This document shows positions 25,637-60,993 of a stretch of 64,000 nucleotides of DNA, piece by piece (the stretch's first letter is position 1; every line of letters starts with the position of its first letter). The stretch covers positions 1-64,000 of the forward strand of contig NZ_QAYX01000018.1 of the NCBI RefSeq assembly GCF_003054705.1, read 5' to 3'. Both the position numbers and the translations under genes were made by a program. Under the pieces are notes generated by a model. The model was not told where the DNA came from. It did no database searches and was given only the letters and a program-made list of their open reading frames with translations. Source of the stretch: Opitutus sp. ER46 (GTDB taxonomy: Bacteria > Verrucomicrobiota > Verrucomicrobiia > Opitutales > Opitutaceae).

Positions 25637-26804
25637 CTGTGGAAGGGAGTGAGGGATTAAGGGAGTGACGGAATGAGGGGGCAGAGCTCGCTGGCGCGAG
25701 GACTGGGGGGGGGCGATCCGTTATCGGTTATTCGTTATCGGGGGCCGGCGCTGGCGCGCGCCGGGGGGTTCCAAGTGGGAAAGTTGCAGGTGGGAAGGTT
25801 GGGCCCCGAAATCGTTCTCGTTCTCGCGGGGTCTGGGGCTCGGCGAGTCTTACTCTTTCTCTTACTCGTTCTCTTACTCCCCCGCTGTCCGAGTTCTGAG
25901 CCTGTCGCCTACAGCTTACCGCCTAGAGCCAAGCCGGGTTTGGCCGCAAAAAGGCGCAGGAGGCGCAAAAGGAGCCACAGATCGCCGAGCCGGGGTTGGC
26001 CACGAAGAGGCACGAAAAGGCACCAAAAAACACCTCGATGCAGCGGGTTGTCTTCGCGCCTCTTGGTGCCTTTTTGTGGCCATAACCAGTTTGGTGGTCG
26101 CTGTCGCCGGCGCGGTTCGCGCGCCGGCTGGAGGGGGTAGGCTGTTTGGTTTTTGACGACGCAAAAACCAACCTTGCCCCCGGCCGCATTCGCGCCGGCT
26201 GAGCGCTGAAGCGCTGCTTCCCGGAGTGGGTTGGCCACGAAGAGGCGCGAGAAGGCACGATAAAAGACCCCATGGCAGTTCTACAGGAGCTCGCAGAGAG
26301 CGCAGAGGTTCGAACGGGAGGCCGACCAAGAGGCACGATAGAACAGCACGGATCCCGGCGCACTTTTACAGGAGCCAAGGGAGGGAACAGAGGTTTGATG
26401 CACAGCCCCCCATTCTCGCATTTTCGCGCCAGCGAAAACGCGAGCGGCAAAGCGTTGTGGGTCGGCCTGCCCACGGGGCGCCCGGCCGACGCCAGCCCTT
26501 CGGGCCGCGACCGCGGCGGTCGCGCCATCTCCGCGCTTCGCGCTGCGTCGCCCCGGGGCTCAGCTTTGCCTGCTGGCAAAGCTTCGCCCCGTCGCGTCTG
26601 GGCGACCGGGTGGCGGTAAAGTGTGTGGTGGCAGTTTTCGCTCATCGAAAACTGGCTCTGACGCTGTCCCTTCGGTGGCTGTAAGCTGTAGGCTTTAGGC
26701 TTTTTCCAACTGATTATCTATTAATGCTTACCGCTTATCGCTTATTGCCTACTGCCACCCATTTCGGATCACGAATAACAAATAACCGATAACTGATAAC
26801 GCCC
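25637..26804. repeat. Mosaic repeat block between glmS and the regulator gene
   Basis: No gene is supported in this 1.17-kb gap. It contains, in order: a GTTATCGGTTATTCGTTATCGG-type word, a TCTTACTCTTTCTCTTACTC tract at about 25848-25883, a GGCCACGAAGAGGCACGA word near 25997, and a GCCGGCGC palindrome. A hairpin with arms TTGGTTTTTG and CAAAAACCAA (about 26148-26172), an AGCGCTGAAGCGCT palindrome near 26200, and a further GGCCACGAAG word at about 26232 follow. Then come a CATTTTCGCGCCAGCGAAAA hairpin near 26417 and a perfect hairpin at 26632-26654 (arms CAGTTTTCG and CGAAAACTG). The part from about 25993 to 26220 has a second copy at about 43750-43980. Several open frames of 100-240 codons lie wholly in these repeats and are not believed. 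Confidence 0.8.
26632..26654. repeat. Perfect hairpin, CAGTTTTCG class
   Basis: Arms 26632-26640 (CAGTTTTCG) and 26646-26654 (CGAAAACTG) enclose the loop CTCAT. It belongs to the TTTTCG/CGAAAA family present at 167, 30449, 34027, 36897, 38326, 43656, 47225 and 48617. No T-tract follows on either strand, so a classical intrinsic terminator is not indicated. Confidence 0.8.
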
Positions 26805-27713
26805 TCATCCAATCTTCAGCGCGGTCTTCACCAGCGGCAGGAGCGCGGCTGCCTTGCCGTGCCAGATCTCCAAGGCGCGGAGGCGCTCATCGAGCACCTC
26901 GCGGTGGGCATCGGCCGGCACGGACGCCCTCAGCGTCCGGATCCGGCTCCGTCCGGTCTCCAACTGCTTCTGCAGCCGCTGATCGATCCACCGCAGCACG
27001 AGATTCCGCAGCTCGAGGTCGGGGGTGTAGCGCGCGCCGCCCTTGGCGGCGCTGCCGGCGTTAGGCGGTAAGCTGTAAGCGTTAGGCTGCGCCGCGTTCG
27101 CGGCACCGCCGCTGGCGGCGGGGTTATCGGCGGGAAAGGGGTTATTGGCTATCCGTTCTGAGTTATTCGTTTGCGCCGCGCTCGACGCTGACATTCCTCC
27201 TTCGCCAAGGCTACGGAGGACAGGCTGACGTCCGACATCTGACATCTGATTGCCGGCTTCCGGCTTCTGGCTTCCGGCTTCCGCCCTCAGGCTTCCGGCC
27301 TCTGGCCTCCGGCTTCCGGCCTCTGGCTTCAGGCCTCCGGCTTCCGGCCTCAGGCTTCCGGCCTCCGGCTTCAGCGCTCCCACTTCCTTCAGCACGCGAA
27401 GACCCTGGCTGATGGAGCCGGAGCTGATGTCGAGGCGCTCGTTGATATCGGAAAAGCTCAAGGGCTCAGCACTTGCGAAACAGATGCCGTAGATGGCGGC
27501 GACGGACTTCGGGATGCCGAGCATTTGGGCGCCCTCGACGAAGAACGCGACGAGCGACTGCTCGTACTCGACCTGCGCCGGGGGTCTTCCCTCGGCCCTG
27601 ACCAACCGGCGTCCCTCACTCGCCGCGGCCGACTCAGCCGCCCCCGCCCCGGCCCGGGAAGCAGGTCGGACCGAGCGCAACAGCGCGGTGCGGAGGGAGG
27701 AGGTAATCGCCAT
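26805..27713 (-). CDS. GbsR/MarR-family transcriptional regulator with repeat-derived linker
   Basis: The 302-residue protein looks like a winged-helix regulator of the GbsR type. The DNA-binding part spans about residues 45-112 (VEYEQSLVAFFVEGAQMLG, PLSFSDINERLDISSGSISQGLRVLKEVGAL). A C-terminal helical part from about 227 (ARYTPDLELRNLVLRWIDQRLQKQLE) is probably for dimerization. Between them, residues 114-226 are not family sequence. They are a six-fold (R/K)PEAGS(L) heptad stretch, a VGRQPVLRSLGEGG segment and a TNNSERIANN/AYSLPPNAG segment, all encoded by repeat words found between genes in this window. The flanking domains keep frame. Its targets are unknown; it stands alone between two repeat blocks, on the same strand as glmS. 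Confidence 0.8.
   Translation of the reverse strand: MAITSSLRTALLRSVRPASRAGAGAAESAAASEGRRLVRAEGRPPAQVEYEQSLVAFFVEGAQMLGIPKSVAAIYGICFASAEPLSFSDINERLDISSGSISQGLRVLKEVGALKPEAGSLRPEAGGLKPEAGSRRPEAGSLRAEAGSQKPEAGNQMSDVGRQPVLRSLGEGGMSASSAAQTNNSERIANNPFPADNPAASGGAANAAQPNAYSLPPNAGSAAKGGARYTPDLELRNLVLRWIDQRLQKQLETGRSRIRTLRASVPADAHREVLDERLRALEIWHGKAAALLPLVKTALKIG
27036..27374. repeat. Intergenic repeat words read as protein inside the regulator gene
   Basis: On the plus strand this stretch holds repeated CTTCCGGC(C/T)TCCGGCTTC-type 21-bp units (about 27245-27375), then CTGTCCTCCGTAGCCTTGGC-like sequence, an AATAACCGATAACC-type word, a GCCGCC/GGCGGC palindrome and a CGGTAAGCTGTAAGCG word. The 21-bp unit and the CTGTCCTCCGTAG word recur, outside any gene, at about 60550-60860. 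A 21-bp period keeps the frame, giving a heptad peptide repeat. Confidence 0.8.
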
Positions 27714-28270
<557 letters not shown>

Positions 28271-29270: not shown

Positions 29271-29324
29271 AACCCCAATCCGTCACTTCGTGGCCATCCC
29301 ACAAAACCAGTCCGGAACAACCCA

Positions 29325-29708
29325 CTATACCCGATTCAGGACGAACTTCTTCACGTAGAGAACCGGCGCCCCAAAGTTGATCAGCAGCCCCGTTTCCATG
29401 CGTGACGACCGGAGATAACCGAGCAGTTGGGCCACATGCTCGTCGGCAATCGCCCGCACCGCCTTCAGTTCCACAATGAGCCGTTGGTCGACCAGGAGAT
29501 CGGCGAAGTAGTCACCCAGCGGCGTGCCGTCCTCATCCAGAACCGGGAGCGGGTGTTGTTGCGCAACCACGACGCCTCGCCGGCGGAGTCGGTGCGCCAA
29601 GGCGTTTTCATAGATCTTCTCGAGGTGGCCGCTGCGGTGGTACCGGTGAATCGCATACGCCGTCTCGCGGACCACATCGCAGAGTGAATTGATTGGGGCA
29701 GGGTTCAT
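29325..29708 (-). CDS. GxxExxY protein (PD-(D/E)XK-like superfamily)
   Basis: This 127-residue protein contains GHLEKIY (G-x2-E-x2-Y) at about residues 27-33, within RYHRSGHLEKIYENALAHRLRRRG. DYFADLLVDQRLIVELKAVRAI follows, where the D and E-x-K residues match a PD-(D/E)XK-type core, and it ends TGLLINFGAPVLYVKKFVLNR. These features define the GxxExxY family (Pfam PDDEXK_3, from memory), usually about 125 residues, so the gene is full length. Its function is unknown in the family. It sits between the tandem repeat array and another repeat block, inside a segment bounded by direct repeats. Confidence 0.9.
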   Translation of the reverse strand: MNPAPINSLCDVVRETAYAIHRYHRSGHLEKIYENALAHRLRRRGVVVAQQHPLPVLDEDGTPLGDYFADLLVDQRLIVELKAVRAIADEHVAQLLGYLRSSRMETGLLINFGAPVLYVKKFVLNRV

Positions 29709-30531
29709 GCTTCCTTAATTACCCCCGGCTATTCGTTTTTACCCGCCTATTTTGCGAGCCGGTGCATTTTCGGCCACAAAAGCAACGACACGGCTAGGCA
29801 GGCCGGGTTGGTTGGCCACAAAAGAGGCAGCGCCGGGGAGCAGGGAAGCCAAGGCAGGGTGTTGGCCACGAAAAGGCACGAGAAGGCACGAGAAAATGCC
29901 GCGGAGCCCGGTCATCGCGCAGGCGATGACTGGGCGGCGGGGGTTGTGGCTTTTGACGACGCAAAAGCCACGGTGCGCCCCGGTCGCGCGACGCGACCGT
30001 TGAGCCCTAACGGGCTGCTCGTTCGAACAGGCGAGGCAGGGTTTGGCCATAAAGAGGCACCAAAATACACGAAGAGAATCGAGGGGATCGAGGGTCTCCG
30101 AGAAGCAGCGCTTCAGCGCTAAGCCGGCGCGAATGCGGCCGGGGGCCAGGTTGGTTCTCGCGTCGTCGAGAACCACACACCCCCAACCCAGCGCCGGCGC
30201 AATCTGCGCCGGCGGACGGAAGTCCCAGAGAGGGTGGCCACGAAAAGGCACCAAGATGCTCGAAGAGAACCCTTGAATCGGAGGTCTTTTATCGTGCCTC
30301 CTCGTGCCTTTTTGTGGCCAAACCCGATCCGTCACTTCGTGGCCAATCTACTCCGGAAAGCAGCGCGCTCGCGTTTTCGCAGGGCGCGAAAATGCGAGAA
30401 GGTGGGGCTGCCTCCGGCGCCGCAGGCGCCGCGTCCGAAACCCCAATTACTTTAGTTTTCGCGCCGCCGAAAACTAAAGTTTCGTGCCTTCTCGCGCCTC
30501 TTTGTGGCGAAACCCGCCTTGGTTCCGTGGC
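29709..30531. repeat. Mosaic repeat block downstream of the MBOAT/SGNH operon
   Basis: No gene is supported. It contains the right 131-bp direct repeat (29909-30040) and a diverged copy of the array unit (about 30045-30235) whose hairpin is again TTGGTTCTCG / CGAGAACCA. A GGCCACGAAA inverted pair lies at 30235-30320, and a CTCGCGTTTTCGC / GCGAAAATGCGAG hairpin near 30368-30398. A GGCGCC-loop-GGCGCC palindrome at 30416-30430 and a perfect 13-bp hairpin at 30449-30480 follow. The stop of the SGNH-like gene follows at 30532. Confidence 0.8.
30449..30480. repeat. Perfect 13-bp hairpin, ACTTTAGTTTTCG class
   Basis: Arms 30449-30461 (ACTTTAGTTTTCG) and 30468-30480 (CGAAAACTAAAGT) enclose loop CGCCGC. 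Compare 34149-34180, where one G-C pair of this stem has become T-A on both arms. It lies about 50 bp beyond the stop of the SGNH-like gene. Confidence 0.85.
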
Positions 30532-33858: not shown

Positions 33859-34026
33859 CGCCTCGGCGCGCGCCGCTCCCCCACCCGTCCGGGCCGCAAG
33901 GCGCGGCGAGGGCAGGAGGCATGGGAGGCGGGCAAGGAGACCGTCGGCATGGCAGAGAGGGATGACTGCAGCGGAAAGGAAATGCCGGCGGCAAGGTTAA
34001 ATTATTAGTTAACCATTATTTCATTT

Positions 34027-34056
34027 CTTTAGTTTTCGACGGCGCGAAAACTAAAG
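34027..34056. repeat. Perfect 12-bp hairpin, CTTTAGTTTTCG class
   Basis: Arms are 34027-34038 (CTTTAGTTTTCG) and 34045-34056 (CGAAAACTAAAG), loop ACGGCG. At 46966-46995 a C-G pair of this stem appears as T-A on both arms, a paired change that keeps the fold. Confidence 0.85.
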
Positions 34057-34148
34057 TACACGGGGTTTCGGACGCGGCGCCACCCCAGCATGCATTAACC
34101 TCAGATTGCTCGGATAAAGACGGGGTGTTGGCCACGAAGAGGCGCCAA

Positions 34149-34180
34149 ACTTTATTTTTCGGCGGCGCGAAAAATAAAGT
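34149..34180. repeat. Perfect 13-bp hairpin, ACTTTATTTTTCG variant
   Basis: Arms are 34149-34161 (ACTTTATTTTTCG) and 34168-34180 (CGAAAAATAAAGT), loop GCGGCG. It differs from the hairpin at 30449-30480 by one substitution in each arm, and the two substitutions pair. Confidence 0.85.
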
Positions 34181-34608
34181 AAGTGGGGGTCATTTCCGGC
34201 GCCGGCGGCGCCGGCAGCAGCTCCCATATAGGTTATCGCGGAGCGAGAACCGGCAAAAACCAACCTTGCCCCGGCCGCATTCGCGCCGGCTGAGCGCTGA
34301 AGCGCTGCTCTCGAATCTTTCTCTTACTCGTACTCTTACTCTTTCTCCCCAAATTCTCGGTTCGAAGCCAATAGCCTACCGCTTACCGCCTACAGCCGAC
34401 AGCGTTTGGCCGCAAAAAAGCGCAAGAGGCGCAAAATAATGAGTTATCGGTTGGTGGTTATGGGTTATTCGATTCGGGCATACAGCCTACAGCTTATTGC
34501 GTATAGCCATCAGGGTTGACCACGGCGCCGATGGCGCCGAGTTAAACGTTAGAATGTTGAAGGTTATAAAGTCTGAAGCGCCGCAGGCGCCGGCCTCAGC
34601 TACCACAT

Positions 34609-34631
34609 AGGTTATCGCGGAGCGATAACCT
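34609..34631. repeat. Perfect 10-bp hairpin, AGGTTATCGC class
   Basis: Arms AGGTTATCGC (34609-34618) and GCGATAACCT (34622-34631) enclose loop GGA. Near-identical copies lie at 39239-39263 and 47303-47326, and the class at 41742 and 48646 has different outer pairs. Confidence 0.8.
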
Positions 34632-35174
34632 CCCTTTCCTCCGTTACCTCCTGTAATACGGATTTGAGCTGGGTGGGTTTGTCCACCGATTCCAAGGCAG
34701 TCTCACAGGAGCTAAGGGAGGGAACAGAGGTTCGAGCCCCAGCCCCCACCTTCTCGCATTTTCGCGCCAGCGAAAACGCGAGCGCGCTGCTTTTCTGAAG
34801 CCCTAAGCCCCTCGTCTATTTTCGTGCGTCTTGGTGCCTCTTCGTGGCTAAACGTACATTGCCTATATTCGTGTCTATTCGTGTCCATTCGTGGTTACCC
34901 ATGGCTACAAGCGGTAAGCTGTAGGCGTTAGGCCCCGACCGAATAACGAATAACCAACAACCAATAACTCATCATTTTGCCCCTTTTGCGCCTCTTTGCG
35001 GCCGGTTCTCGCTTCGCGAAAACCGAAGCAGGAGCTGAAGCCAGCGCCTCTGGCGCCGGGATTTGACGCCCTCTTCCTTCATTTTTGTCACCAGCAAAAA
35101 TGAATGGGCCGACCGGCCAATGGCGGCGACCGCTGGGAAGCGGCTAACCTCGGTGTTTCAACCCGCCTCTACCC

Positions 35175-36920
35175 GTGCGCCTTCACCCCCGGCCGTTGTC
35201 CGCCGCGCTCCCGGTGCGGCTCGTCCTCCTCCTCGCCGCGCTCGCGCTCGCAGCCACAGCGTCCGCCGCCGAGCCGGCTGCCGCACCGCGCCGCCGGCCG
35301 ATCGACCGCACCATCGATCGCTCCCACCCGCGGTTCGCCGGCAAGCCTCCCCTCGTTCCGCGCTGGGCCTTCGAGCCCTGGGTGTGGGAGGACAACGGGA
35401 ATACCCGGCAATCCACCGAGCAACTCGTCGACGGCTACCTCGCGCGCGACATCCCCACGGGGGTCGTGATCGTCGACAGCCCGTGGACCACCGCGTACAA
35501 CAACTTTGTCTGGGACCCGAAGCGCTACCCGGATCCCGCCGCGATGTCGCGCGGGCTGCACGCGAAAGGAGTCCGCCTCATTCTCTGGCAGGCCGGGATG
35601 CTCAACCGCGTGGCCGAGGATGGCCTCGCGCCCGATCCCGATTTCGACCGCGCCCTCGCGCTCGGCTACGTCGTGAACGGCGGCCAGGAGTACAAGTGGT
35701 GGAAGGGCATCGGTCGCCACGTGGACTTCACCAACCCGGCCGCCTGCGCGTGGTGGACGCAGCGCATGGCGCAGGCGGCGCAGGTGGGCGTGGACGGTTG
35801 GAAGGCCGACCAAGGCGAGGGCGCGTTGCCCGACATCGTCGAGACCTCCCGCGGTCCGCTGCCGCACAAGATCTTCAAGCTCGCGTACTATCACGCCATC
35901 CGCGAGGCCGCGCTCCGTCTCAACCGCGACGCCGTGGTGCTGGCGCGGCCGTTCTCGCACCAGGGCGGCTGGGCCGCCGCGATCGCCGACTGCTCCGTCG
36001 GCTGGGGCGGCGACTTCAGCGGGGACTGGGCCGGGCTCCAGCTGCAGCTCGACAACATGTATCTCAGCGCCGCGGCCGGCTACGGCGTGCTCGCGGTCGA
36101 AGTCGGCGGTTTTTACCGGGCGAAGTCCACCAAGCGGGAACTGATCCGCTACGCGCAGTTCGGCGCGCTCATGCCCGTGATGTGCAACGGCGGCGCCAAC
36201 GGCGGGCTCGCCGAACACCTGCCTTGGTTCCACGACGAGGAAACCGTCCGCATCTACCGCCGCTTCGCCACGCTCCACCACGAACTCGGCGACTACCTGT
36301 TCTCGTGCGCCGTCGACGCGCATCTCCACGGCGGCTCGGTCGTGCAGACGCCCGATATCGCGCGCCGCCAGCACCGGCTCGGACCCGACCTGCAGGTGGG
36401 CGTGGTGGCCGACGCCACCGATCGCGCGTCCGTCACGCTCCCGGCCGACGGCGGTCCGTGGATCGATTGGTGGCGGCAAACGGAGATCCATCCCGCGGGG
36501 GCAACGATCGCGTCGGTCGTCCCGCTCGACCAGTGTCCGCTCTACGTGCGCGCCGGCGCCGTGCTGCCGATGACGGTGACCTCCGACCTCATGGGCAACG
36601 GTGACGCCGCCAGCCGCGGTCGCCGCACGCTGGTGTGTTTCCCGCACGGGAAGTCGGAGCGCCGCCTGCACCTGCCGACGGGCGCGGGGATAGACTACGA
36701 GGACGTGACCGTGGCAATGGACGCCTCCGCTGGCACGCTCACGCTCCGCAGCCCGAGCCGCCAGCCGTGGCGCCTGCGGGTGAAGTGCCTAGCGGCGCCG
36801 CAGGAGGTCCGGGGCGCGACCACCTGGGCCTATGACCCACGCGGCCAGTGGCTCACCGCCGACGTCGACGCCGCCGACGTCCAGTTGTCGCTCCGCCAGT
36901 TTTCGCTGCGCGAAAACTGA
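35175..36920 (+). CDS. Secreted glycoside hydrolase family 31
   Basis: This 581-residue enzyme has a signal peptide (about residues 1-32, RLVLLLAALALAATASA) and a GH31 (beta/alpha)8 domain. GVDGWKADQGE at about 205-215 carries the nucleophile Asp212; SVGWGGDFSGDW at about 274-285 carries the likely acid/base Asp280. WAFEPWVWEDNGNT and GGFYRAKSTKRELIRYAQFGALMPVM are also family-like. GH31 members act on alpha-glucosides, alpha-xylosides or sulfoquinovosides; the substrate is not readable. Translation starts at GTG 35175, or possibly at the in-frame GTG 13 codons later. The last residues, QFSLREN, and the TGA stop are encoded by the repeat hairpin at 36897-36920. Confidence 0.9.
   Translation: MRLHPRPLSAALPVRLVLLLAALALAATASAAEPAAAPRRRPIDRTIDRSHPRFAGKPPLVPRWAFEPWVWEDNGNTRQSTEQLVDGYLARDIPTGVVIVDSPWTTAYNNFVWDPKRYPDPAAMSRGLHAKGVRLILWQAGMLNRVAEDGLAPDPDFDRALALGYVVNGGQEYKWWKGIGRHVDFTNPAACAWWTQRMAQAAQVGVDGWKADQGEGALPDIVETSRGPLPHKIFKLAYYHAIREAALRLNRDAVVLARPFSHQGGWAAAIADCSVGWGGDFSGDWAGLQLQLDNMYLSAAAGYGVLAVEVGGFYRAKSTKRELIRYAQFGALMPVMCNGGANGGLAEHLPWFHDEETVRIYRRFATLHHELGDYLFSCAVDAHLHGGSVVQTPDIARRQHRLGPDLQVGVVADATDRASVTLPADGGPWIDWWRQTEIHPAGATIASVVPLDQCPLYVRAGAVLPMTVTSDLMGNGDAASRGRRTLVCFPHGKSERRLHLPTGAGIDYEDVTVAMDASAGTLTLRSPSRQPWRLRVKCLAAPQEVRGATTWAYDPRGQWLTADVDAADVQLSLRQFSLREN
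36897..36920. repeat. Hairpin that encodes the GH31 C terminus and stop
   Basis: Arms CAGTTTTCGC (36897-36906) and GCGAAAACTG (36910-36919) enclose loop TGC. The reading frame passes through it and terminates at the TGA formed by the last two arm bases and the next A (36918-36920). Confidence 0.85.
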
Positions 36921-37081
36921 AGTGGGGGGTGCAACACCGGCACCATCGGCGCCGCGACCTCTGTTCCCTCTGCTATCTCCTGTGAGATGGCCTTGTGAAT
37001 TTTATCGTGCATTTTCGTGCCTCTTCGTGGCCAACACCCGTCTTATCCGAGCAATCTGAGGTTAAACAAAACTCCCCCTTC

Positions 37082-38320: not shown

Positions 38321-39291
38321 GACTCTAGTTTTCGCGCCCGCGAAAACTAAAGTAAGTGGGGTTTCGGACGCGGCGCCTGCGGCGCCGGCTTCAGCTTTCA
38401 GCCTTCGCTTCCCGGAGTGGGTTGGCCACGAAGAGGCACGAGAAGGCACGATAAAGGACCAGCAGCCATCGGATTTGGCCGCAAAAAAGCGCAAGAGGCG
38501 CAAGAGGATGAGTTATCGGTTGTAGGTTGTTCGTTATTCGGTACAGGCCTACGGCCTACCGCGTTTCGCCTATAGCCGAGCCGGCGGTGGCCACGAAGAG
38601 GCGCGAGAAGGCACGATAAAGGACCGACAGCCAAGGCAGGTTCGACAGGAGCTCGCTGAGAGCGCAGAGGTTCGAGCCGGGAGGGAGCCGCCGGCGCTCG
38701 GTCGCGCCGGCTGCTGGGGGTGTGGCTGTTTGGTTATTGACGACGCAAAAACCAACCTTGCCCCCGGCCGCATTCGCGCCGGCTGAGCGCTGAAGCGCTG
38801 CTTCCCAGAGCCCCTCCCTTCCCTCTGTTATCTCCTGTAAAACGGATTGGAGATGGGCGGTTTTGAGCACCGATTTCCAAGGCCGTCTCACAGGAGCCAA
38901 GGGAGGGAACAGAGGTCGCGGCGCCTGCGGCGCCGGATTGAAGGTTATAATGTTTAAGGTTTAAGGTTTGGACTCCTGATTGAACCCTCTGCGGCCTCTG
39001 CGATCTCCTGTTAAGCCATATCCTGTTTTAATCTGCGCAATCTGCGGTTAATTACAGGCCGGTCTATTTGCCTCAGATTACTCAGATCCAAGCACGATTC
39101 GTCAGAGGTCAATCGGCTTGGGCTCTCGATCGAATCCTCTACGGCCACTGCTGGCCACCGTAGTAATCATATCCAGTCTTCATCCGTGTAATCTGTGGTT
39201 AATATACGGCGCCGACGGGCGCCGGCTGCAGCTCCCATCCAGGTTATCGCGCCAGTGATAACCTTTTGGTGCCTCTTCGTGGCTAACCCCC
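38321..39291. repeat. Mosaic repeat block downstream of the phosphoesterase gene
   Basis: No gene is supported. A hairpin lies six bases after the stop (38326-38349, arms TAGTTTTCGC and GCGAAAACTA). A GGCGCC palindrome follows near 38368, then GGCCACGAAGAGGCACG and TTATCGGTTGTAGG words. Position 38589-38915 is a full copy of the composite unit that is tandemly repeated at 49799-50461. Position 38920-39053 is a GGCGCC/TTTAAGGTTTAAGG/CTCTGCGATCTCCTGTT composite. A GGCGCCGACGGGCGCC palindrome and an AGGTTATCGC hairpin (39239-39263) precede the fucosidase stop. Confidence 0.8.
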
Positions 39292-41085: not shown

Positions 41086-41744
41086 ATAGAGGTTTATGGA
41101 TTTTGCCGCAAAAAGGCGCAAAAGGATGAGTTATCGGTTGTAGGTTATTCGTTATTCGGTTCGAGCCTACGGCCTACCGCTTATCGCCTATAGCCACGGC
41201 GCCGGTGGCGCCGGGTTGAAGGTTATAAAGTTTAAGGTGCCAAGGTTTGGGCTCCTGATCGAATCCTCTGCGGCCTCTGCGAGCTCCTGTAAAACGGGTC
41301 TTCTATTCGGGCTTCTTCGTGTCCATTCGTGGTTACACCCCATCCGGTTTTCATCTGAGGTATCTGAGGTTAATACAGAATTGGTTTTGACCTCAGATTA
41401 CTCTGATCAAGGCAGGGTGGTCGGCGAAGGCGCCGGGTCGAAGGTTATAAGGTTTATGGTGCTAAGATTATGGCACTGGAATCGATGCGAGCTGCTGGGA
41501 ATGGGTACTCCTTATCGTGCCTCTTGGTGCCTTTTCGTGGCCAACCATTCCGGAAATATTCGTGTCGATTCGTGGTTAAGTTTATCCGGATTTATAGGCG
41601 GCTGTAGGCTATAGGCTTTAGGCGGTTGGGTGACGGATTATGGATGACGACCGGCCGATTACCGAGTACGGGGGGCGATCGCACACGGGACGAGAACGAG
41701 AACAAGCAAGAGGAAGAGAGGGTCGCTGGCAGCCCCCACTTCAG
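41086..41744. repeat. Mosaic repeat block upstream of the fucosidase gene
   Basis: No gene is supported. It has TTATCGGTTGTAGGTTATTC and GCCTACCGCTTATCGCC words and a GGCGCCGGTGGCGCC palindrome at 41198-41212, followed by the TTGAAGGTTATAAAGTTTAAGG composite (to about 41372). A CTGAGGTATCTGAGGTTAA word, a second partial composite near 41440-41470 and an ATTCGTGTCGATTCGTGG word near 41560 follow. The fucosidase promoter probably lies just above 41085. Confidence 0.78.
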
Positions 41745-41764
41745 TTATCGCGCAGCGATAACTG
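41742..41764. repeat. Hairpin that encodes the GH97 C terminus and stop
   Basis: Arms CAGTTATCGC (41742-41751) and GCGATAACTG (41755-41764) enclose loop GCA. On the minus strand the GH97 frame reads its last residues VIAAR and the TAA stop (41745-41747) inside the hairpin. Confidence 0.85.
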
Positions 41765-43601
41765 GAAGCAGCCGCAGAGCCACACCCCCGCTGGGGACGA
41801 GGTTGATTGGGAGGGTCGTGGTGCGGGTGACTTCGACCGTGCGCTTGGTCACGGTCTTGTCGGAGCCGTCCTCGAAGATATCGGCGCGGAAGCGCTGGCC
41901 GGCGGGCAGGAAGTCGAAGCCGAGCGTGAGGGTGCGGGCGCTGGTGTTGGTCACGGCGCCGACGAACCAGTCGGCTCCCTTGCGCCGCGCGACGACGATG
42001 AACTCGCCGGGGGTGCCGGCGGGGACGCGCGTGTCATCCCACGTTGTCGGCATTTCCTTCCAGAACTCGAGTTCGTGGCGGTTCACGATCTGCTCGGGCC
42101 GATCGTACCAGAAGAGGTACTGCAGCGGGCCGAAGTTGATCGCGGCGAGCGCCAGCTGGTGCGCCTTGGTCTTCCCGTTCAGGTTTTTCTCGTTCCAGCA
42201 GTAGGTGTGGTCCGCGGCGCCGGCGATGAAGCGCGTGAACGGATAGATCGTGCTCTGCGTGGCGTCGGGCCGGCCCTCGTCGCCCAGGATGCCCTCCTGC
42301 TGGAGGAGGTTCGGGTACGTGCGGCTGAATCCGGTCGGCCGGTAGTTGTCGTGAACGTCGACGACCAGGCCGTGCTGGGCCGCCTTTTTGACCGCCTCAT
42401 GCAGCCACGTGACCCAGCGGTGCGAGCCGGTGTGCACGAAGCCGAACTTCACGCCGTCCACGCCCCACTGGTGGTAGAGCGGAAACGCCACGTCGAGCTG
42501 CCGCTCGAGCGCGCGGTGGTTGACGTAGAGGATCACGCGGCGGCCGTGGGCCTTGGCGTAGCGGATCGCCTCGGGCAGATCGAGGTCGCCGCGGCGGTTG
42601 CGCCGCGGGTCGACGCTCACCTTGGTGGCATCGGACGCGACGGTGTACTCGTAACCGTACCAGCCCGCGTCGAAGTGCAGGTAGTCGATCCCCTGCTCCA
42701 CGGCGAAATCCACGAGCCGCTTCGCGCCGGCGGTGGAGAGCGTTGTCTCGCGCATGACCTTGCCGGGGTGGATCCAGGAGGTGTCGGCGATTTCGCAGGG
42801 CGGATTGAGGTTCAGGATGAGGTAGTTGTGCTCGAGCAGCTGTCCGGGCTGGGCCGCCACCAGAACCACGCGCCACGGCGTGCCCCAGGGAGAGGTTTCA
42901 ACCACGGAGCTGTGCAGCTGGCTGACGAGCCGGTCCTCGCCGGCAAGATGGAGGCGGGTCTGCGCGTAGTTGGTGAGCCCGGCCTCGGCGAGGCTCAGCC
43001 AGGCGCCGTCGGGCAGCGCCAGCGTGACGGGGATGTGGCAATCGCGTTTCCAGTCCCGCAGCGGCAGGCGCGCGTAAGTCTCCTGGGCGTCCGGGGTCCA
43101 AAACGCGTTCGTGCCGGCGGGCAGGTTGTACTCGGTGCGCTCGGCGCCGATCTCGATCGTCGAGGTGCGCGAGCTCTCGGGGAAAAAGTAGCGGAAGGCG
43201 ATGCCCTCGTCGTAGGCGCGGACGACGAGCTGGAGCTGCGCCTCAGATTCGCTGCCGCGGAGGAGGTCGACGGTGATCTCGTTGAAATGGTCAGGCACCT
43301 CCGCGCGTTCGCCCCAGGTGGGGCGCCAGGGGGTGTCGACGCTGCGCCGGGCCACGGCGCCCAGCTTGAACCCGGCATCCCAGGAATGCCCGGGCGCGGC
43401 GCCGAGCCGGACCAGGCCGAGCCGCGACGGGAGAAGGCGCGGCGTGTCGCGTTCGAGCACCTGGTACACGGGTGCGCCCTGGGCGTCGGTGCCCAGGGAG
43501 AAGCGGAGGCGGCCGTCGGGCGAGGTGACCTCGACATCGGCGCGCAGGAGGGGGGCCAGGAGCAGGGAGAGCGTGAGAGCGGCGAGCAGGGCGAGACGCA
43601 T
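41745..43601 (-). CDS. Secreted glycoside hydrolase family 97
   Basis: From ATG 43601 the protein has 618 residues with a signal peptide (MRLALLAALTLSLLLAPLLRA). The N-terminal beta-sandwich contains SPDGRLRFSLGTDAQGAPVYQVL. The barrel has WIHPGKVMRET, GIDYLHFDAGWYGYEY, HQWGVDGVKFGFVHTG, VVDVHDNYRPTGFSRTYPNLLQQEGILGDE and STIYPFTRFIAGAADHTY. GH97 includes inverting alpha-glucosidases (SusB) and retaining alpha-galactosidases. The KFGF block lacks the Asp expected of the retaining group. HDN stands where I recall HE in SusB, so catalytic assignment is uncertain. The frame extends upstream to 43919 through repeats, which was rejected. Confidence 0.9.
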   Translation of the reverse strand: MRLALLAALTLSLLLAPLLRADVEVTSPDGRLRFSLGTDAQGAPVYQVLERDTPRLLPSRLGLVRLGAAPGHSWDAGFKLGAVARRSVDTPWRPTWGERAEVPDHFNEITVDLLRGSESEAQLQLVVRAYDEGIAFRYFFPESSRTSTIEIGAERTEYNLPAGTNAFWTPDAQETYARLPLRDWKRDCHIPVTLALPDGAWLSLAEAGLTNYAQTRLHLAGEDRLVSQLHSSVVETSPWGTPWRVVLVAAQPGQLLEHNYLILNLNPPCEIADTSWIHPGKVMRETTLSTAGAKRLVDFAVEQGIDYLHFDAGWYGYEYTVASDATKVSVDPRRNRRGDLDLPEAIRYAKAHGRRVILYVNHRALERQLDVAFPLYHQWGVDGVKFGFVHTGSHRWVTWLHEAVKKAAQHGLVVDVHDNYRPTGFSRTYPNLLQQEGILGDEGRPDATQSTIYPFTRFIAGAADHTYCWNEKNLNGKTKAHQLALAAINFGPLQYLFWYDRPEQIVNRHELEFWKEMPTTWDDTRVPAGTPGEFIVVARRKGADWFVGAVTNTSARTLTLGFDFLPAGQRFRADIFEDGSDKTVTKRTVEVTRTTTLPINLVPSGGVALRLLPVIAAR

Positions 43602-44278
43602 GGGGGTCAAAGAGAATAGGAAATCGCGCCCGTCCCGGGCAACTGGCCAATCGGACAGTTTTCGCTCCGCGAAAACTGAAGTAAGTGGGGTTTCGGATGC
43701 GGCGCCTGCGGCGCCGGCTTCAGCTTTCAGCCTTCGCTTCCCGGAGTGGGTTAGCCACGAAGAGGCACGAGAAGGCACCAAAATGAACTTCAATACAGTG
43801 GGTTCGTCTTCGCGCCTTTTGGTGCCTTTTTGTGGCCATAACCAGTTCGGTGGTCGCTGTCGCCGGCGCGGGTCGCGCCGGCTGGGGGGCGTGTGGCTGT
43901 TTGGTTTTTGACGACGCAAAAACCAGCCCTGCCCCCGGTCGCTTGACGCGACCGTAGAGCGCTGAAGCGCTGCTTCCCGGACCTTTCGCTTGCTCTCCCG
44001 CTGCCCAAGTTCTTGGCCTACGGCCTACCGCTTATTGCCTATAGCCGAGCCTGGGTTGGCCACAGCGCCGGTGGCGCCGGGTTGAAGGTGATGAAGTTTA
44101 AGGTGCTAAGGTTCGAACTCCTGCCCGATCCCTCGGCGAGCTCTGCGATCTCCTGTTGAGCCACATCCTGTTTCCATCGGCGCAATCTGTGGTTAAATAC
44201 AGGCCGGCTCTTTCTCCCCCCGAGATAATCCGCTCCGGGCCTAAAGCTTATCGCTTACCGCCTACAGCCAAGCGCGCA
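43602..44278. repeat. Mosaic repeat block upstream of GH97
   Basis: No gene is supported. The hairpin at 43656-43678 (arms CAGTTTTCGC and GCGAAAACTG) is followed by a GGCGCCTGCGGCGCC palindrome. Position 43750-43980 is a second copy of the composite at 25993-26220, including an ATAACCAGTTCGGTGGTCGC core, the TTGGTTTTTG / CAAAAACCA hairpin and the AGCGCTGAAGCGCT palindrome. Position 44061-44200 is a GGCGCC/TTTAAGGTGCTAAGG composite, followed by a CTTATCGCTTACCGCC word. Confidence 0.78.
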
Positions 44279-46929: not shown

Positions 46930-46931
46930 AT

Positions 46932-46964
46932 ATCTTTCTCTTACTCTTTCTCTTACTCTTACTC
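46932..46964 (-). promoter_or_regulatory. Purine-tract ribosome-binding region before the DUF4886 start
   Basis: On the minus strand the ATG at 46929 is preceded by TAT and then a run of GAGTAAGA and GAGAAAGA words over about 33 bases. It resembles an extended Shine-Dalgarno-like purine run. The same arrangement occurs before the gene starting at 53051. Confidence 0.55.
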
Positions 46965-46965
46965 A

Positions 46966-46995
46966 CTTTAGTTTTTGCCGGCGCAAAAACTAAAG
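46966..46995. repeat. Perfect 12-bp hairpin, CTTTAGTTTTTG variant
   Basis: Arms 46966-46977 (CTTTAGTTTTTG) and 46984-46995 (CAAAAACTAAAG) enclose loop CCGGCG. Compared with 34027-34056 one C-G pair is replaced by T-A. Confidence 0.85.
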
Positions 46996-47406
46996 AAGGT
47001 GTTTTTAACCACAGATCGCTCGGATCAAGGCATGATGGTGGCCACAAAGAAGCACGAAAAGGCACGATAAAAGACCGGCAACCAAGGCAGGTTCTACAGG
47101 AGCTCGCTGAGAGCGCAGAGGTCGCGGCGCCGGTGGCGCCGGGTTGAGAGTTATAAGGTTAAGGTTCTAGGGTTTGGACTCCTGATTGAATTCTCTGCGA
47201 ACTTTGCGATCTCCTGTAAGACTCTAGTTTTCGACGGCGCGAAAACTAAAGCAAGTGGGGTTTATATACCGGCGCCACTGGCGCCCAAGGCAGCCCCCAC
47301 ATAGGTTATCGCGAGAGCGATAACCTTCGTGTCCATTCGTGGTTAAGCCAATCCGGTTTTCATCTGAGGCATCTGAGGTCAAAAACCAAATATCGTGCCT
47401 GCGCCG

Positions 47407-48616: not shown

Positions 48617-48668
48617 ATGTTTTCGCGCCGCGAAAACATAATATTCAATTATCGCGGAGCGATAATTG
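48617..48668. repeat. Two adjacent hairpins in a divergent promoter gap
   Basis: Hairpin one has arms ATGTTTTCGC (48617-48626) and GCGAAAACAT (48630-48639), loop GCC. Hairpin two has arms CAATTATCGC (48646-48655) and GCGATAATTG (48659-48668), loop GGA. Their outer pairs differ from all other copies in the window, yet both stems are perfect. They lie between the divergently oriented esterase (start 48534) and SGNH gene (start 48767). Confidence 0.85.
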
Positions 48669-49531: not shown

Positions 49532-51011
49532 TAAGGTTTAAGGTGCTAAGGTTTGGACTCCTGATTGAATCCTCTGCGAGCTCAGCGATCTCCTGTTGAG
49601 TCATATCCGGTCTTTATCTGAGCAATCTGAGGTTAAATACAGATCCCCGATTTCACCTCAGATTACTCAGATCAAGGCAGGATGTTGGCCACGAAGAGGC
49701 ACGAGAAGGCACGATAAAAGACCAGCAGCCGATCAGGATTTGGCCGCAAAAAAGCGCAGGAGGCGCAAAAGCGAGCCACAGATCGCCGAGCCGGGGTTGG
49801 CCACGAAGAGGCGCGAGAAGGCACGATAAAAGACCGGCAGCCAAGGCAGGTTCTACAGGAGCTCGCTGAGAGCGCAGAGGTTCGAGCCGGGAGGGAGCAG
49901 CCGGCGCGGGTCGCGCCGGCAGGGGGGGGGTGGCTGTTTGGTTTTTGACGACGCAAAAACCAACCTTGCCCCCGGCCGCATTCGCGCCGGCTGAGCGCTG
50001 AAGCGCTGCTTCCCGGAGCCCCTCCCTTACCTCCGGTATCTCCTGTAAAGCGGATTGGAGATGGGCGGGTTTGAGCACCGATTTCCAAGGCCGTCTCACA
50101 GGAGGGCGCGGAGCTCGCAGAGATCGAGCCGGGGGTTGGCCACGAAGAGGCAGGAGAAGGCACGATAAAGGACCGACAGCCAAGGCAGGTTCTACAGGAG
50201 CTCGCTGAGAGCGCAGAGGTTCGAGCCGGGAGGGAGCAGCCGGCGCGGGTCGCGCCGGCAGGGGGGAGTGGCTGTTTGGTTTTTGACGACGCAAAAACCA
50301 ACCTTGCCCCCGGCCGCATTCGCGCCGGCTGAGCGCTGAAGCGCTGCTTCCCGGAGCCCCTCCCTTACCTCTGTTATCTCCTGTAAAGCGGATTGGAGAT
50401 GGGTGGATTTGAGCACCGATTTCCAAGGCATCTCACAGGAGGCAAGGGAGGGAACAGAGGTCGCGGCGCCGATGGCGCCGGGTTGAAGGCAATAAAGCTT
50501 AAGGTGCCAAGGTTCGAACTCCTTGCCCGATTCCTCTGCGATCTCCTTAGTTTTCGGCGTTGCCAAAACTGAAGTGAGTGGGGTTCGGGATCCGGCGCCA
50601 CGGGCGCCGGCTTCAGCTTTCAGCCTTCGCTTCCCCAGACTCCCTCCCTTTCCTCCGTTATCTCCTGTAAAACGGATTGGAGATGGGTGGATTTGAGCAC
50701 GGATTTCCAAGGCCGTCTCACAGGAGGCAAGGGAGGAAACAGAGGTTCGAGCCCCAGCCCCCTCTTCTCGCATTTTCGCGCCCTGCGAAAACGCGAAAGC
50801 GCTGCCTCCCGGATCTTTCTCTTACTCCTACTCTTACTCATTCTCTCTGGGGATATCGGCTCTGGGCATGGAGCTTATAGCCTACAGCCTATAGCTATAT
50901 CGTGCCTGTTGGTACCTCTTGGTGGCCAACCCTGCCTCGGACTACACTCGTGTTCCTTCGTTTCCATTCGTGGTTACATACACCAAGTAAGAGTAAGAGA
51001 ACGCCGGCCAC
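49532..51011. repeat. Mosaic repeat block with tandem 339-bp composite unit
   Basis: No gene is supported over 1.48 kb. A TTTAAGGTGCTAAGGTTTGG/CTCTGCGAGCTCAGCG composite covers 49532-49640. Two near-identical copies of a long composite start at 49799 and 50138 (period 339); a third is at 38589-38915. Further partial copies are at 50641-50745 and 34633-34731. 50461-50550 is a GGCGCCGATGGCGCC/TTAAGGTGCCAAGG composite. Pyrimidine tract TCTTTCTCTTACTCCTACTC is near 50812-50845, and a GTAAGAGTAAGAG tract adjoins the stop of the next gene. Open frames such as 49653-50426 and 50192-50773 (minus) lie entirely in repeats. Confidence 0.85.
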
Positions 51012-53051: not shown

Positions 53052-53820
53052 ATATAATCTTTCTCTTTCTCCTACTCTTTCTCTTTCTCTCAGATCGGAG
53101 AGCCAGTGATTGGCCATTCAGTCGCTGGTCCAGGAGCCTAACGCCGAAAGCCTATCGCTTATAGCCATGGGATAACCACGAATGCACACGAAGGGACTCA
53201 AATCGGGACCAGGCACTTTTACAGGAGGGAGCAGAGGGCGCAGAGGTTTTTAACCACGGATTGCTCAGATCAAGGCAGGATGGGTTGAAGCAGGATCAAG
53301 GCAGGGTTGGCCACGAAGAGGCGCGAAGAGGCAGGATAATAGTACCGATGCTCGGGTGGATATTCGTGTTCATTCGTGTCTATTCGTGGTTAGTCCCATC
53401 CGGTTTTCATCTGAGCAATCTGAGGTTACACATAGAATGGGTTTTGCCCTCAGATTTCTCGGATGAAGACAGGATGGGCGCCGCGTTGGAGGTGATAACG
53501 TTTAAGGGGCTAAGGTTCGGACTCCTGATTTAATCCTCTGCGGCCCCTGCGAGTTCCTGTAGAATCATATTCGATCCTTATCCGCTGATACCGGTTATTT
53601 GTTATTCGTTATTGGTTATCAATGATCGGATCGATCGGAAGACGCAGGATGCGGCTGAGGTTGAAAAGAACTCGAAGCGGCGCCAGCAGGCGCCGGCAGC
53701 AACCTCCACTTCGGTTCGCGCGGAGCGAAAACCGGCGAAAACCGCGCGCATCGGCCGCCCCGGGGTGAACCAAGGCGGCCGGACCCATCTGCGACAACGT
53801 TGGATCCGCCCCGCTGGGCA
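53052..53820. repeat. Mosaic repeat block between GH-D enzyme and beta-helix gene
   Basis: No gene is supported. It includes the purine/pyrimidine tract at 53057-53091, GCCTATCGCTTATAGCC and GGATTGCTCAGATCAAGG words, and a GGCCACGAAGAGGCGCG word near 53310. ATTCGTGTTCATTCGTGTCT words lie near 53365-53395, followed by a CTGAGCAATCTGAGG word, a TTTAAGGGGCTAAGG composite (about 53489-53600) and a GTTATTCGTTATTGG word. Imperfect GGCGCC and GGTT(T)TCGC / GCGAAAACC inverted repeats lie at about 53680-53750. The possible promoter of the 53051 gene was not resolved. Confidence 0.75.
53057..53091 (-). promoter_or_regulatory. Purine-tract ribosome-binding region before the GH-D gene
   Basis: Upstream of ATG 53051 the minus strand reads a run of GAGAAAGA words with one GTAGGAGAAAG, ending about six bases before the start codon (spacer TTATAT). 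The layout matches the tract before the DUF4886 start at 46929 and uses the same word as tracts lying between genes. Confidence 0.55.
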
Positions 53821-57006: not shown

Positions 57007-57177
57007 GAGCTTTTCGCAGGCACGAGAAACCAGGTTCTCGTGGGGATCTTATTTCATCATTGTCGTGATCAGCCCGGCCGGGGTCGCGGAAGCGCCAAGG
57101 CGCCGCGCCGCCGGCCAGGCGATCTGGGGTTCGGTCGTACAAAGCGGCTGCCAGTCATGACCGGCAGCCGCGCCTCT

Positions 57178-60100: not shown

Positions 60101-60546
60101 TCCACCTGGGCGTTGGGCCAGCGCGCCTCGTTCATCATCACCCCGTCGACAAAGAGCTGCCGGAAGGACGCTGTGGTCGGCGCGGTGTAGATTGAGCCGC
60201 TGTGGGGTGTCCACGTGGCGTTCAGCACGTCGGCGCCGCTGACCACAACGGTTTCGTTCTCATGCGGCGCAAAGGTGATTGAGGCGTCAGCCGTGCCGGA
60301 GTTGGCCGGCGTCACGGTTTCGCGGTAGGTGCCCTGGCGGATATAGCAGGTGTCACCAGCCACCATGACGGCGGCCGCCTGCTGGATGGTGAGGAACGGA
60401 GCCTCGAGGGAGGTGCCGGCGTTGGTATCGGCGCCGGACTTGGCGACATAGTAGGTCGTGGCCAGGACTGGTTGCGTGAGCGCCACCAGGAGACTGCCGA
60501 TCAGCGTCAGGCGCGTGAGCGGTCGCGGGGGTAGGACGGAGTGCAT
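57178..60546 (-). CDS. Secreted beta-helix protein paralog with collagen-like insertion
   Basis: From ATG 60546 the protein has 1122 residues and the same order as its neighbour: signal peptide, right-handed beta-helix (TTYYVAKSGADTNAGTSLEAPFLTIQQAA), FN3, then two jelly-roll domains. In the second jelly-roll the loop after VIVRLAALAREEAEG carries a Gly/Pro-rich stretch (about residues 940-992, units such as GAP, GVP, GPG, GPP-like), encoded at 57570-57727. The paralog has SETTAGSYDK at this place. The frame upstream of 60546 reads through degenerate 21-bp repeats and was rejected. A 171-bp gap separates the two paralogs. It probably faces the outside and handles a glycan. Confidence 0.87.
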   Translation of the reverse strand: MHSVLPPRPLTRLTLIGSLLVALTQPVLATTYYVAKSGADTNAGTSLEAPFLTIQQAAAVMVAGDTCYIRQGTYRETVTPANSGTADASITFAPHENETVVVSGADVLNATWTPHSGSIYTAPTTASFRQLFVDGVMMNEARWPNAQVENLLEAPRARVDSGTRTSLVDAALPAVDLTGAKLHIYTGNVGGEFSANTRTVTVHDQAAHSLTWVGNTGYGVYTGTPYSLYGKLALLDIPTEWHLDTATGTLYLWAPDSASPASHVVEVKARASAFMLNGRAYVTVRGLHVFAAGISMANTNHCLVDSCHLRHTQHYTTADWANASIVQACLTSGTGSTWRNSTLYFSSQDGITLKGTGARVENCVIGEVAYYPGRYYANVNCDSGSGHVVTGNTLARSGRYLVKPDEATGLDISYNDLGFGCRLTADGGALYAHTIEGGGTNIHHNWIHHNEVGVYLDMDAHGYNVFRNVITASADGIRMGNGYRRNIYNNTFIDNAYSVHTVSGTAQNDTFVINNLADAGINVLTGGTASNNGWFPPLGANYVPQAGSGAIDGGLVASPYTDGFVGAAPDIGAYEVGAPDWVPGASIALPQFPTLESTAVPPAPTNVAARPATDGIEVTWTPSPTFVGAYRIKRSERGHGHFTTVGTVLAGASFIDSTAESGATYSYVVSAVNSVGEGRNSASARAMSRVPTPWANADIGLKFRTGGASLNDGVWVTKGCGADIGGSKDSFNYTYEPMTGDGEIVARLTDQELGGGGDKVGVMMRDGLAADAPSFALVINSGTGTPPPQVRIAYRAAIGAGTGWISGATGITLPVWLKLQRVGNAFTGSYSADGTTWTTLGTKSLTMANDINVGFAVCSRKTVGTLNTSTFDQVSAPWSDTDVGSVELGGNVRYSAGAYTLSGSGGPHGPRDDRFNFAHKTRTGDGAVIVRLAALAREEAEGPGGPGRPDDPAAPVGPVAPGAPVGPAAPGVPVGPGPGGPGGPGGPGGPGRDAEGEAGITFRDGLAADAAMVALRVVDLKPAHGHGPGASPARARVELIQRDAAGGHPRMVHLEVEAELPLWLKLERTGDTFTGSVSTDGTTWTPVGTATVVLPSALQAGMTVSGRHPNARAIATFDNVTW
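57570..57727. repeat. Collagen-like coding insertion in the beta-helix gene
   Basis: The coding strand specifies consecutive Gly-x-x triplets rich in Pro, with GGPGGPGGPGGPG at one end and PVGPVAPGAPVGPAAPGVP in the middle. The stretch is absent from the neighbouring paralog at the aligned position, so it arose or was gained after duplication, or was lost in the other copy. Confidence 0.75.
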
Positions 60547-60993
60547 GGGGAGGAAAGGTCGGAAGCCGGAGGTCAGAAGTCGGAGGCCGGAAGCCAGAAG
60601 CCGGATGTCGGATGTCAGAGGTCGGAGGCCAGAGGCCTGAAGCCGGAGGCCGGATGTCGGCGTCTGAGACGGACGATGGGGAGACCGAACTTGGGTCACG
60701 GAGGGCACGGAGTTCGGAGGAGGTCACAGAGCGGAGGAGGAAGGCAGAAGGCGGAGGCCGGACGCGGAAGCCAGAGGCCAGAAACCGGAAGCCGGCGGCA
60801 GAGGTCGGAGGTCAGAGGTCGGCCTGTCCTCCGTAGTCTGGGCGAAGGTGGAAGGCTTGGCAGGAGGAGGGGCGGAGCCACGGAATGGAAGGCAGGCTGC
60901 GACCACGAAGGCCCCACACATCGCGCGGCCGGGCCGCGCGATGCTGCAGCCCCCCCAGTATCCTGATTTTTCGGGCCGCCGAAAAATCAGGAT
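60547..60993. repeat. Degenerate 21-bp word array and terminal hairpin upstream of beta-helix gene
   Basis: No gene is supported. From about 60550 to 60665 the plus strand repeats GGAAGCCGGAGGCC-like words with GGATGTCGGATGTCAG interludes, and again at about 60730-60815. At about 60822-60860 a CCTGTCCTCCGTAGTCTGGG segment follows. These are the same words that encode the linker of the regulator at 27036-27374. A GCGCGGC/GCCGCGC palindrome lies near 60927-60945, and the 15-bp hairpin at 60960-60993 closes the gap. Confidence 0.8.
60960..60993. repeat. Perfect 15-bp hairpin abutting the receptor stop codon
   Basis: Arms ATCCTGATTTTTCGG (60960-60974) and CCGAAAAATCAGGAT (60979-60993) enclose loop GCCG. 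The right arm ends exactly where the TonB-dependent receptor stop codon begins (60994). It probably protects or ends the transcript, but there is no T-tract on the receptor strand after the stem. Confidence 0.85.

Follow-up and report, generated by a model that had tools for sequence, protein, structure and literature searches.

Hairpins in the window

The window analyzed here covers the initial 64 kb of contig 18 in the genome of Opitutus sp. ER46 (5.71 Mb in 25 contigs) and contains many copies of a short hairpin element that lies mainly outside genes and whose two arms change together. Genes called with a home-made codon-score caller sum to about 24.0 of the 35 kb between positions 26000 and 61000, compared with a coding fraction of 0.83 in all of the DNA scanned, and coding density is thus low there. 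Scans of the window yielded no Rfam match above the gathering score and no tRNA. Perfect stems of at least 10 bp number 30 in 26000–61000, where 20 first-order Markov simulations gave a mean of 0.95 and a maximum of 3; in 22 of them A+T makes up 40% or more of the stem, against a mean of 0.2 and a maximum of 2 in the same simulations. A screen for perfect stems of at least 9 bp, with loops of 0–10 nt and G+C below 0.62, listed 28 hairpins. Sorting by eye of the 25 that start in 26632–60960 assigned 16 to the family described here and 9 to a second family with stems TTGGTTTTTG, TTGGTTCTCG or GTGGCTTTTG.

The original prediction had proposed at least fifteen perfect hairpins with 9–15-bp stems and 3–6-base loops between 26632 and 60993. 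The count holds, whereas a few loops have 1, 2 or 7 bases and the family also occurs outside that range, for example at 150..189. The hairpins placed at 30449, 34149, 34027 and 46966 were all found there, and the five stems quoted without coordinates were located: CAGTTTTCGC (36897, 43656), ATGTTTTCGC (48617), CAATTATCGC (48646), CAGTTATCGC (41742) and AGGTTATCGC (34609, 47303). These hairpins are real, but some of them are halves of larger, two-hairpin elements.

Anatomy of the unit and of the doublet

The unit begins with a C-rich head at the 5′ side (consensus CCCCACTT), which some copies lack, and continues with a hairpin, mostly of 9–15 bp, that has the core TT[T/A]TCG(C)...(G)CGA[A/T]AA. 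Four stem types recur: type a (ACTTTAGTTTTCG) with a six-base loop, type b (CTCGCATTTTCGC), whose stem contains an A.C mismatch that reads G.T on the opposite strand, type c (CAGTTTTCGC) with loops mostly of three bases, and type d (AGGTTATCGC). Units were collected with model R1, built on alignment A1 (in which row 53692 is incomplete; a second MAFFT alignment, with a different right arm, was set aside). The R1 scan covered 28 sources (572 kb) that were picked because they held matches, and the densities in them are not genome averages. It gave 158 matches, 150 of which enter alignment A4; merging of overlapping matches left 111 distinct units, including 4 cross-hits to the second hairpin family.

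Among 104 measured units, the C-rich head lay within 12 nt 5′ of the hairpin foot in 69 and on the other side in 14, the foot being the end of the perfect stem, which in type b falls at the mismatch; a GGCGCC-type palindrome was present within 60 nt of 57 units. Two units can form a doublet of 103–114 bp, in which two unlike hairpins point outwards, with their heads inside, around a GGCGCCnnnGGCGCC palindrome. We aligned five complete doublets, each of which pairs hairpins of different types, and their predicted single-stranded DNA fold consists mainly of the two end hairpins plus a central one (z −4.7 to −7.0). Opposed units at most 120 nt apart had their heads inside in 16 of 17 pairs, with a gap of 20–24 nt in 10 of the 17.

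Paired changes in the two arms

Standard pairs made up 97.7% of the cells in an alignment of 32 units that had been selected as hairpins, and both-sided changes occurred at 10 of the 13 pairs. The covariation score was 0.355, compared with 0.080 for shuffles and at most 0.084 with slid partners; further pair types numbered 15 against 13.5 in shuffles, a value reached by 113 of 500 shuffles and hence not above them. Because these rows had been chosen for pairing, we picked rows again by the head and left core only, which gave 46 rows in 1.17 Mb. A complementary core followed 2–9 nt on in 39 of the 46 (chance, about 0.8% each), and the other 7 look like decayed units or unrelated sequence. Watson–Crick pairs at outer positions 1 to 4 of the 39 rows numbered 38, 31, 39 and 38, while shuffling gave means of 38.0, 24.7, 23.6 and 15.2 and maxima of 38, 30, 31 and 24. 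Pair 1 is nearly invariant and therefore uninformative, and the count at pair 2 is lower because one subfamily keeps the A.C (G.T) mismatch, which was retained in 8 of the 39 units.

Matched variants of the left arm within a single subfamily include ACTTTAG, ACTTTAT, ACTTTGG, ACTTTGT and ACTTCAG, and type a alone has at least four. One-sided intermediates are also present (ACTTTAG/CTAGAGT, ACTCTAT/ATAAAGT and ACTGTAT/ATAAAGT), and the arms are near-perfect while the loops vary. The covarying sequences are related to each other, so that their changes do not count as independent events. A few ancestral sequences alone are nevertheless insufficient to explain the arm differences, because paired changes are seen both within one subfamily and between congeners. 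The matched differences first noticed in the window thus hold for rows chosen without regard to the right arm, and the conclusion drawn from them, that the folded form is either selected or regenerated by a copying process, is sound.

Placement relative to genes

Gaps between co-directional genes hold 51 of the 111 units, convergent gaps 25 and divergent gaps 19; of the others, 5 are at edges and 11 overlap a called gene, several of these covering only its last codons. Twenty-three units were found within 25 nt of a stop codon and only one within 25 nt of a start, although the gene calls contain 626 starts and 574 stops facing intergenic DNA. The order gene, hairpin, head was kept in all 24 units that have at least 8 perfect pairs and lie at most 30 nt from a stop. 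In four genes the hairpin encodes the tail of the protein, QFSLREN* in three and QFSPREN* in one. One of these hairpin-tailed genes was compared with 10 homologues, none of which has the QFSLREN tail (a search with L042:4010-5245 met too many paralogues to be of use). The absence of the tail from these homologues fits an insertion close to the end of the gene, without proving it.

The AMP-nucleosidase gene allowed a comparison of one site among species. A hairpin stands behind its stop codon in 4 of 20 readable orthologues, namely in the genome under study (G000) and in the congeners G004, G005 and G011, and the four hairpins have four different self-complementary stems. The G000 stem at this site is the one that is limited to G000 among 27 genomes. 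Other hairpins lie near the stop in G001 and G016. Four of the 24 loci were unreadable, and two stretches stop early at contig ends. In the gene tree (20 sequences) G000 groups with G004 and G005, with a support of only 0.83, and G011 stands beside G017, which is without the hairpin.

Distribution among related genomes

The family comprises about 100 copies in the genome under study. At an E value of 0.1, R1 gave at least 139 matches in it with both strands counted (150 of 3450 candidates scored), the best of which cluster on contigs 9, 13 and 18. R1 matched 10 of 57 genomes. Besides the own genome, these are 8 of the 26 congeners and a single one of the 30 genomes beyond the genus. The exact core GTTTTCGC-N2-6-GCGAAAAC was found in 15 of 95 genomes, with 73 copies in the own genome, 64 in G019, 23 in G003, 17 in G004, 16 in G011 and at most 10 in each other genome; its reversed control pattern occurred once, in one genome.

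The outer pairs of these copies differ from genome to genome. The combination CAG..CTG accounts for 42 of the 73 own copies and is absent from all 26 congeners. By contrast, AGG..CCT occurs twice in the own genome but in 9 of the 26 congeners (48 copies in G019, 15 in G003 and 10 in G011), and GGA..TCC was seen three times in G004, once in G002 and never in the own genome. Together with the shared site behind a core gene, this makes the family a clean case of hairpin repeats in which the species of one genus carry different sets of stems. No close strain was met, only congeners whose protein identity in the AMP-nucleosidase gene is 83–88%. A scan of a genome collection for CAGTTTTCGCNNNGCGAAAACTG, from which own-genome or near-identical records were possibly excluded, returned five stretches in four records of unrelated taxa. 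In two congeners (G005 and G004), around position 1500 of loci L094 and L115, a hairpin stands directly before the same gene start (ATGAATGTCGT..), in front of a gene that by eye we take to be queC-like.

Y1 transposase genes

A search for a Y1 transposase gave 13 matches in the own genome, and four tested Y1 proteins resemble the REP-associated tyrosine transposase (RAYT) model, REP standing for repetitive extragenic palindrome, below its cut-off. The Y1 elements themselves were considered as the source of the units and rejected, since the ends at loci L005, L007, L008, L009, L012 and L015 are unlike the units: L009 and L015 have inverted ends around AAAGGGGAC..GACA, L007 and L008 have AAGGGGTCATCCCTTACC-like inverted ends, L005 has hairpins around AAGCTGACAAAGTGAC, and at L012 only one end is clear. 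Hairpins of at least 9 bp were also listed at all 43 Y1 loci. Inverted ends of another sequence are thus present at four of these six own Y1 loci, as in the Y1 genes flanked by terminal inverted repeats of PMC3733652.

Two further observations concern these loci. At L005 the Y1 gene lies between hairpins AAGCTGACAAAGTGACGCC.. (about 1353–1415 and 2622–2683), and a resembling family, AAAGTGTCACGT, occurs elsewhere; this is a candidate RAYT/REP pair. Loci L009–L015 carry seven Y1 elements that are 90–96% identical over about 1.1–1.3 kb.

Relation to known repeat families

Palindrome-associated transposable elements and miniature inverted-repeat transposable elements derived from IS200/IS605 are short, non-autonomous elements with two different terminal hairpins. 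The hairpins of the present doublets are inverted, and no parent element with such ends was found at the 13 own Y1 loci. The original prediction had recognized no described family, but the kind made up of REPs, bacterial interspersed mosaic elements (BIMEs) and REP doublets forming hairpins (REPINs) fits. According to PMC3733652, REPs are extragenic hairpins in high copy number that often lie behind genes, can supply stop codons, form doublets with their tags inside or outside and include subfamilies with alternative complementary stem residues, and one tag class is without a transposase; compensatory changes in REPIN hairpins are described in PMC3116915. Opitutus terrae, also a verrucomicrobium, is named as REP-rich, with some repeats carrying GTGG (PMC3733652). 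The present family shares with REPs and BIMEs in the wide sense short palindromic copies that are mainly extragenic, regularly spaced inverted doublets, complementary-stem subfamilies and a preference for gene 3′ ends.

The family differs from the GTAG-tagged REPs, BIMEs and REPINs that are associated with a RAYT (TnpA-REP) in several respects. None of 104 units has a GT[AG]G foot, no own Y1 gene with a unit within about 1.5 kb was found, its head CCCCACTT lies on the side away from the gene, and its five aligned doublets combine two unlike hairpins. CGTC-tagged REPs, which according to PMC3733652 also form inverted doublets and have no associated transposase, are REP-like in the same way; however, CGTC, TGTC or CCTC tags were seen at the feet of 0 and 2 of the 104 units, and the heads are inside in our doublets, whereas the tag-outside (HH) arrangement predominates in that class (same source). 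Repeated hairpins without GT[AG]G are also known from TnpA-Y1 subclass 2.6 and class 3 (the latter with a CnGA foot), but those flank their transposase genes (PMC6006769), and none was found doing so here. A literature search with short stem strings returned no bacterial-repeat title among the matches listed, from which we do not claim absence from print. As two defining features, the GT[AG]G guide and an adjacent Y1 transposase, were not found (0 of 104 units and 0 of 13 own loci), we do not file the family as a canonical REP, though it works like a REP/BIME family, and we call it a lineage-specific, REP-like variant. What sets it apart is the missing guide, the position of the head and the failure to find a Y1 gene next to any unit of the own genome. 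The family extends REP-like repeats to elements that carry neither GTAG nor CGTC tags and are strictly oriented to the upstream gene.

Origin and maintenance of the family

We consider mobilization of the folded strand in trans to be the likeliest cause of the family, by a moderate degree of confidence, and the units probably spread as single-stranded DNA hairpins, a step that we infer. In its favor stand the excess of hairpins, the covariation with and without selection on pairing, the one-sided head and the order of the doublets, the placement and orientation at stops, the hairpin-encoded tails, and the genome-specific stems, also at the AMP-nucleosidase site. An element would fold as single-stranded DNA during replication or transcription, and an HUH (Y1-type) or other hairpin-recognizing enzyme, acting in trans, would copy or move the folded element, with new copies often landing just behind stop codons. 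If only copies that still fold were copied again, arm changes would last only as pairs and each genome would drift to its own stem. Once in place, a hairpin would cap the 3′ end of the transcript and could supply a stop codon. Structure, paired changes, copy number, doublet order, placement and orientation, and the genome-specific stems are observed, while recognition of the single strand, the enzyme and any effect on mRNA are the conditional parts of this scheme. A more far-reaching version appears doubtful to us, namely that the family spreads and stays folded without a dedicated RAYT, its stem being replaced in concert genome-wide, and also at a site shared with related species, by a strand-specific copying process that sets the hairpin down with the stop codon on one side and a G-rich tag on the other.

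Several results weigh against mobilization in trans. No unit was found near any of the 13 own Y1 genes, within about 1.5 kb on each side (less at contig ends), and thus the REP-associated Y1 transposase that the original prediction proposed to search for was not found beside a unit; among 30 loci of relatives, limited to Y1 matches with a locus retrieved, a single weak match lay about 1.3 kb away. The GT[AG]G guide was present at the hairpin foot in 0 of 104 units on either strand, and no clean empty site for an insertion was seen. With the 23 stop-side units set apart, the spread of units over the gap classes is close to the gap lengths scanned (co-directional, 99.5 kb; convergent, 35.5 kb; divergent, 49.0 kb) and shows little preference. 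The hairpin-encoded tail may reflect divergence, given that the 10 homologues are only 35–39% identical and that their own ends are often longer, and behind the AMP-nucleosidase gene such a hairpin is missing from 16 of the 20 orthologues that could be read. In most of 41 congener copies from four genomes the C-rich head is, by eye, absent, which means that head and doublet do not hold in general. The R1 matches in congeners show a pyrimidine-rich stretch at the head position more frequently, because R1 selects for it.

The main rival, which we regard as unlikely, is that the transcribed hairpin is selected as an RNA element of the 3′ end (by protection from 3′ exonucleases or by effects on the ribosome or on transcription) and is kept folded by compensatory mutation, while the element itself hardly moves or does not move at all. 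REPs near stop codons have a role in ribosome stalling. Selection on the transcribed hairpin would agree with the fixed orientation behind stops (24 of 24), with the rarity of units near starts (1 of 111) and with the paired replacements at the same AMP-nucleosidase site in related species. It does not account so well for the 19 of 111 units that lie between divergent genes or for the contrast between some 100 copies in a single genome and the scarcity or absence of copies in most congeners, and site-by-site compensation would not predict that the commonest own stem has 42 copies here and none in 26 congeners.

Less probable still is quasi-palindrome correction, in which template switching at the fork repairs one arm from the other and pairs any single change without selection. 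The near-perfect arms with varying loops and the one-sided intermediates are what it would produce, and arm-to-arm correction may contribute; on the other hand, it does not explain the copy number, the head, the fixed doublet order, the orientation to genes or the A.C (G.T) mismatch that stayed uncorrected in 8 of 39 units. Intrinsic transcription terminators would also lie directly behind stop codons, but we think them very improbable, in that no T tract was seen behind the hairpin in 22 stop contexts (one of which ends inside the hairpin), a GGG run follows it in 15 of the 22 by eye, the T's sit in the 5′ arm, and, as a weak general check, terminator-like sites in one 20-kb stretch numbered 6 against 9.5 in shuffled sequence. 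A palindromic operator for a dimeric DNA-binding protein, which the symmetric conserved core TTTTCGC/GCGAAAA and the hairpin before the queC-like start in G005 and G004 might suggest, has hardly any likelihood when the outer pairs vary widely within one genome yet remain complementary and only 1 of 111 units lies within 25 nt of a start.

We regard the genome-specific stems and the strict orientation as the parts worth following. The stem sets that differ between species make a question about REPs testable, namely whether the fold is kept by an enzyme acting on single-stranded DNA hairpins, by an RNA function at the 3′ end or by arm-to-arm correction.

Features of the window and other repeats

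Table 1. Units, doublets and related hairpins of the family in the window.
Positions	Strand	Feature	Evidence
150..189	+	Unit CCCCCACCT + CAGTTTTCGC hairpin, outside the range first proposed	R1 match
26401..26444	+	Unit, type-b hairpin CTCGCATTTTCGC	R1 match
26632..26654	.	Hairpin CAGTTTTCG..CGAAAACTG	Hairpin screen; no R1 match at E 0.05
30368..30480	+	Complete doublet: type-b hairpin (30368-30398), GGTGGGGCTGCC, central GGCGCC palindrome, ACCCCAATT head, type-a hairpin (30449-30480)	DNA fold z −4.67
34027..34070	-	Half element: CCCC head + CTTTAGTTTTCG hairpin	R1 match
34149..34251	-	Complete doublet: AGGTTATCGC-like hairpin (one arm decayed), palindrome, CCCCACTT head, ACTTTATTTTTCG hairpin (34149-34180)	DNA fold z −5.27
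34592..34631	+	Unit, AGGTTATCGC hairpin	R1 match
34739..34782	+	Unit, type-b hairpin CTCGCATTTTCGC	R1 match
35003..35104	.	Doublet of degenerate units: CGGTTTTCG hairpin (-) + TTCATTTTTG hairpin (+)	
36897..36936	-	Half element; hairpin overlaps the final codons and the stop codon of gene 35175-36920, which has the tail QFSLREN*	R1 match
38322..38393	-	Half element: palindrome, ACCCCACTT head, ACTTTAGTTTTCG hairpin; directly behind stop of gene 37082-38320	
39224..39264	+	Unit, AGGTTATCGC-like hairpin, palindrome upstream	R1 match
41725..41766	+	Unit CCCCCACTT + CAGTTATCGC hairpin; overlaps end of gene 41745-43601	R1 match
43656..43725	-	Half element: palindrome, ACCCCACTT head, CAGTTTTCGC hairpin	R1 match
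46952..47009	-	Unit, CTTTAGTTTTTGC hairpin (46966-46995)	R1 match
47222..47326	-	Complete doublet: AGGTTATCGC hairpin (47303-47326), palindrome, CCCCACTT head, CTTTAGTTTTCG hairpin (47222-47251)	DNA fold z −6.15
48617..48668	.	Two adjoining hairpins ATGTTTTCGCG + CAATTATCGC, no recognizable head	R1 matches only 48619-48637, weakly
50549..50588	-	Degenerate type-a unit, CCCCACTC head	R1 match
50753..50796	+	Unit, type-b hairpin	R1 match
53695..53734	+	Degenerate unit, left arm GGTTCGCG	R1 match, weak (E 0.0042)
60948..60993	+	Unit, ATCCTGATTTTTCGG hairpin; directly behind stop of gene 60994-63981 (-)	R1 match

The window contains other repeats as well. The second hairpin family (TTGGTTTTTG-acgacg-CAAAAACCAA, TTGGTTCTCG and GTGGCTTTTG), in which arm changes are matched too, occurs at 28270-29274, 30152-30175, 26146-26171, 43902-43925 and 49787-50442, part of it within tandem units of 227 bp and 338 bp. 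Inverted repeats that are long and imperfect, with arms resembling CATCTGAG..ATCTGAGG, lie at 41340-41420, 49605-49683 and 53395-53478, and repeats of roughly 10-nt period (TTCGTGTCCATTCGTGGTTA; CACGAAGAGGCACGAGAAGGCACGA) are found at many places, among them 34816-34908, 53348-53393 and 26216-26269. Minisatellites with periods of 7, 21, 35 or 42 bases, composed of CCGGCTT-like and CGGAAGC-like sequences, are present far apart, at 27253-27374 and 60560-60658. Palindromes of two further families were seen as well, GAGATAACACGCCA-aatc and GATAACTAGCCA-aatc, in part as nested doublets (L049, 18997-19060; L051, 18860; L037, 11465; L055, 10401). Finally, the adjoining genes at 53821-57006 and 57178-60708 of the window are beta-helix/DUF1349 paralogues, with stretches that are 72–77% identical.

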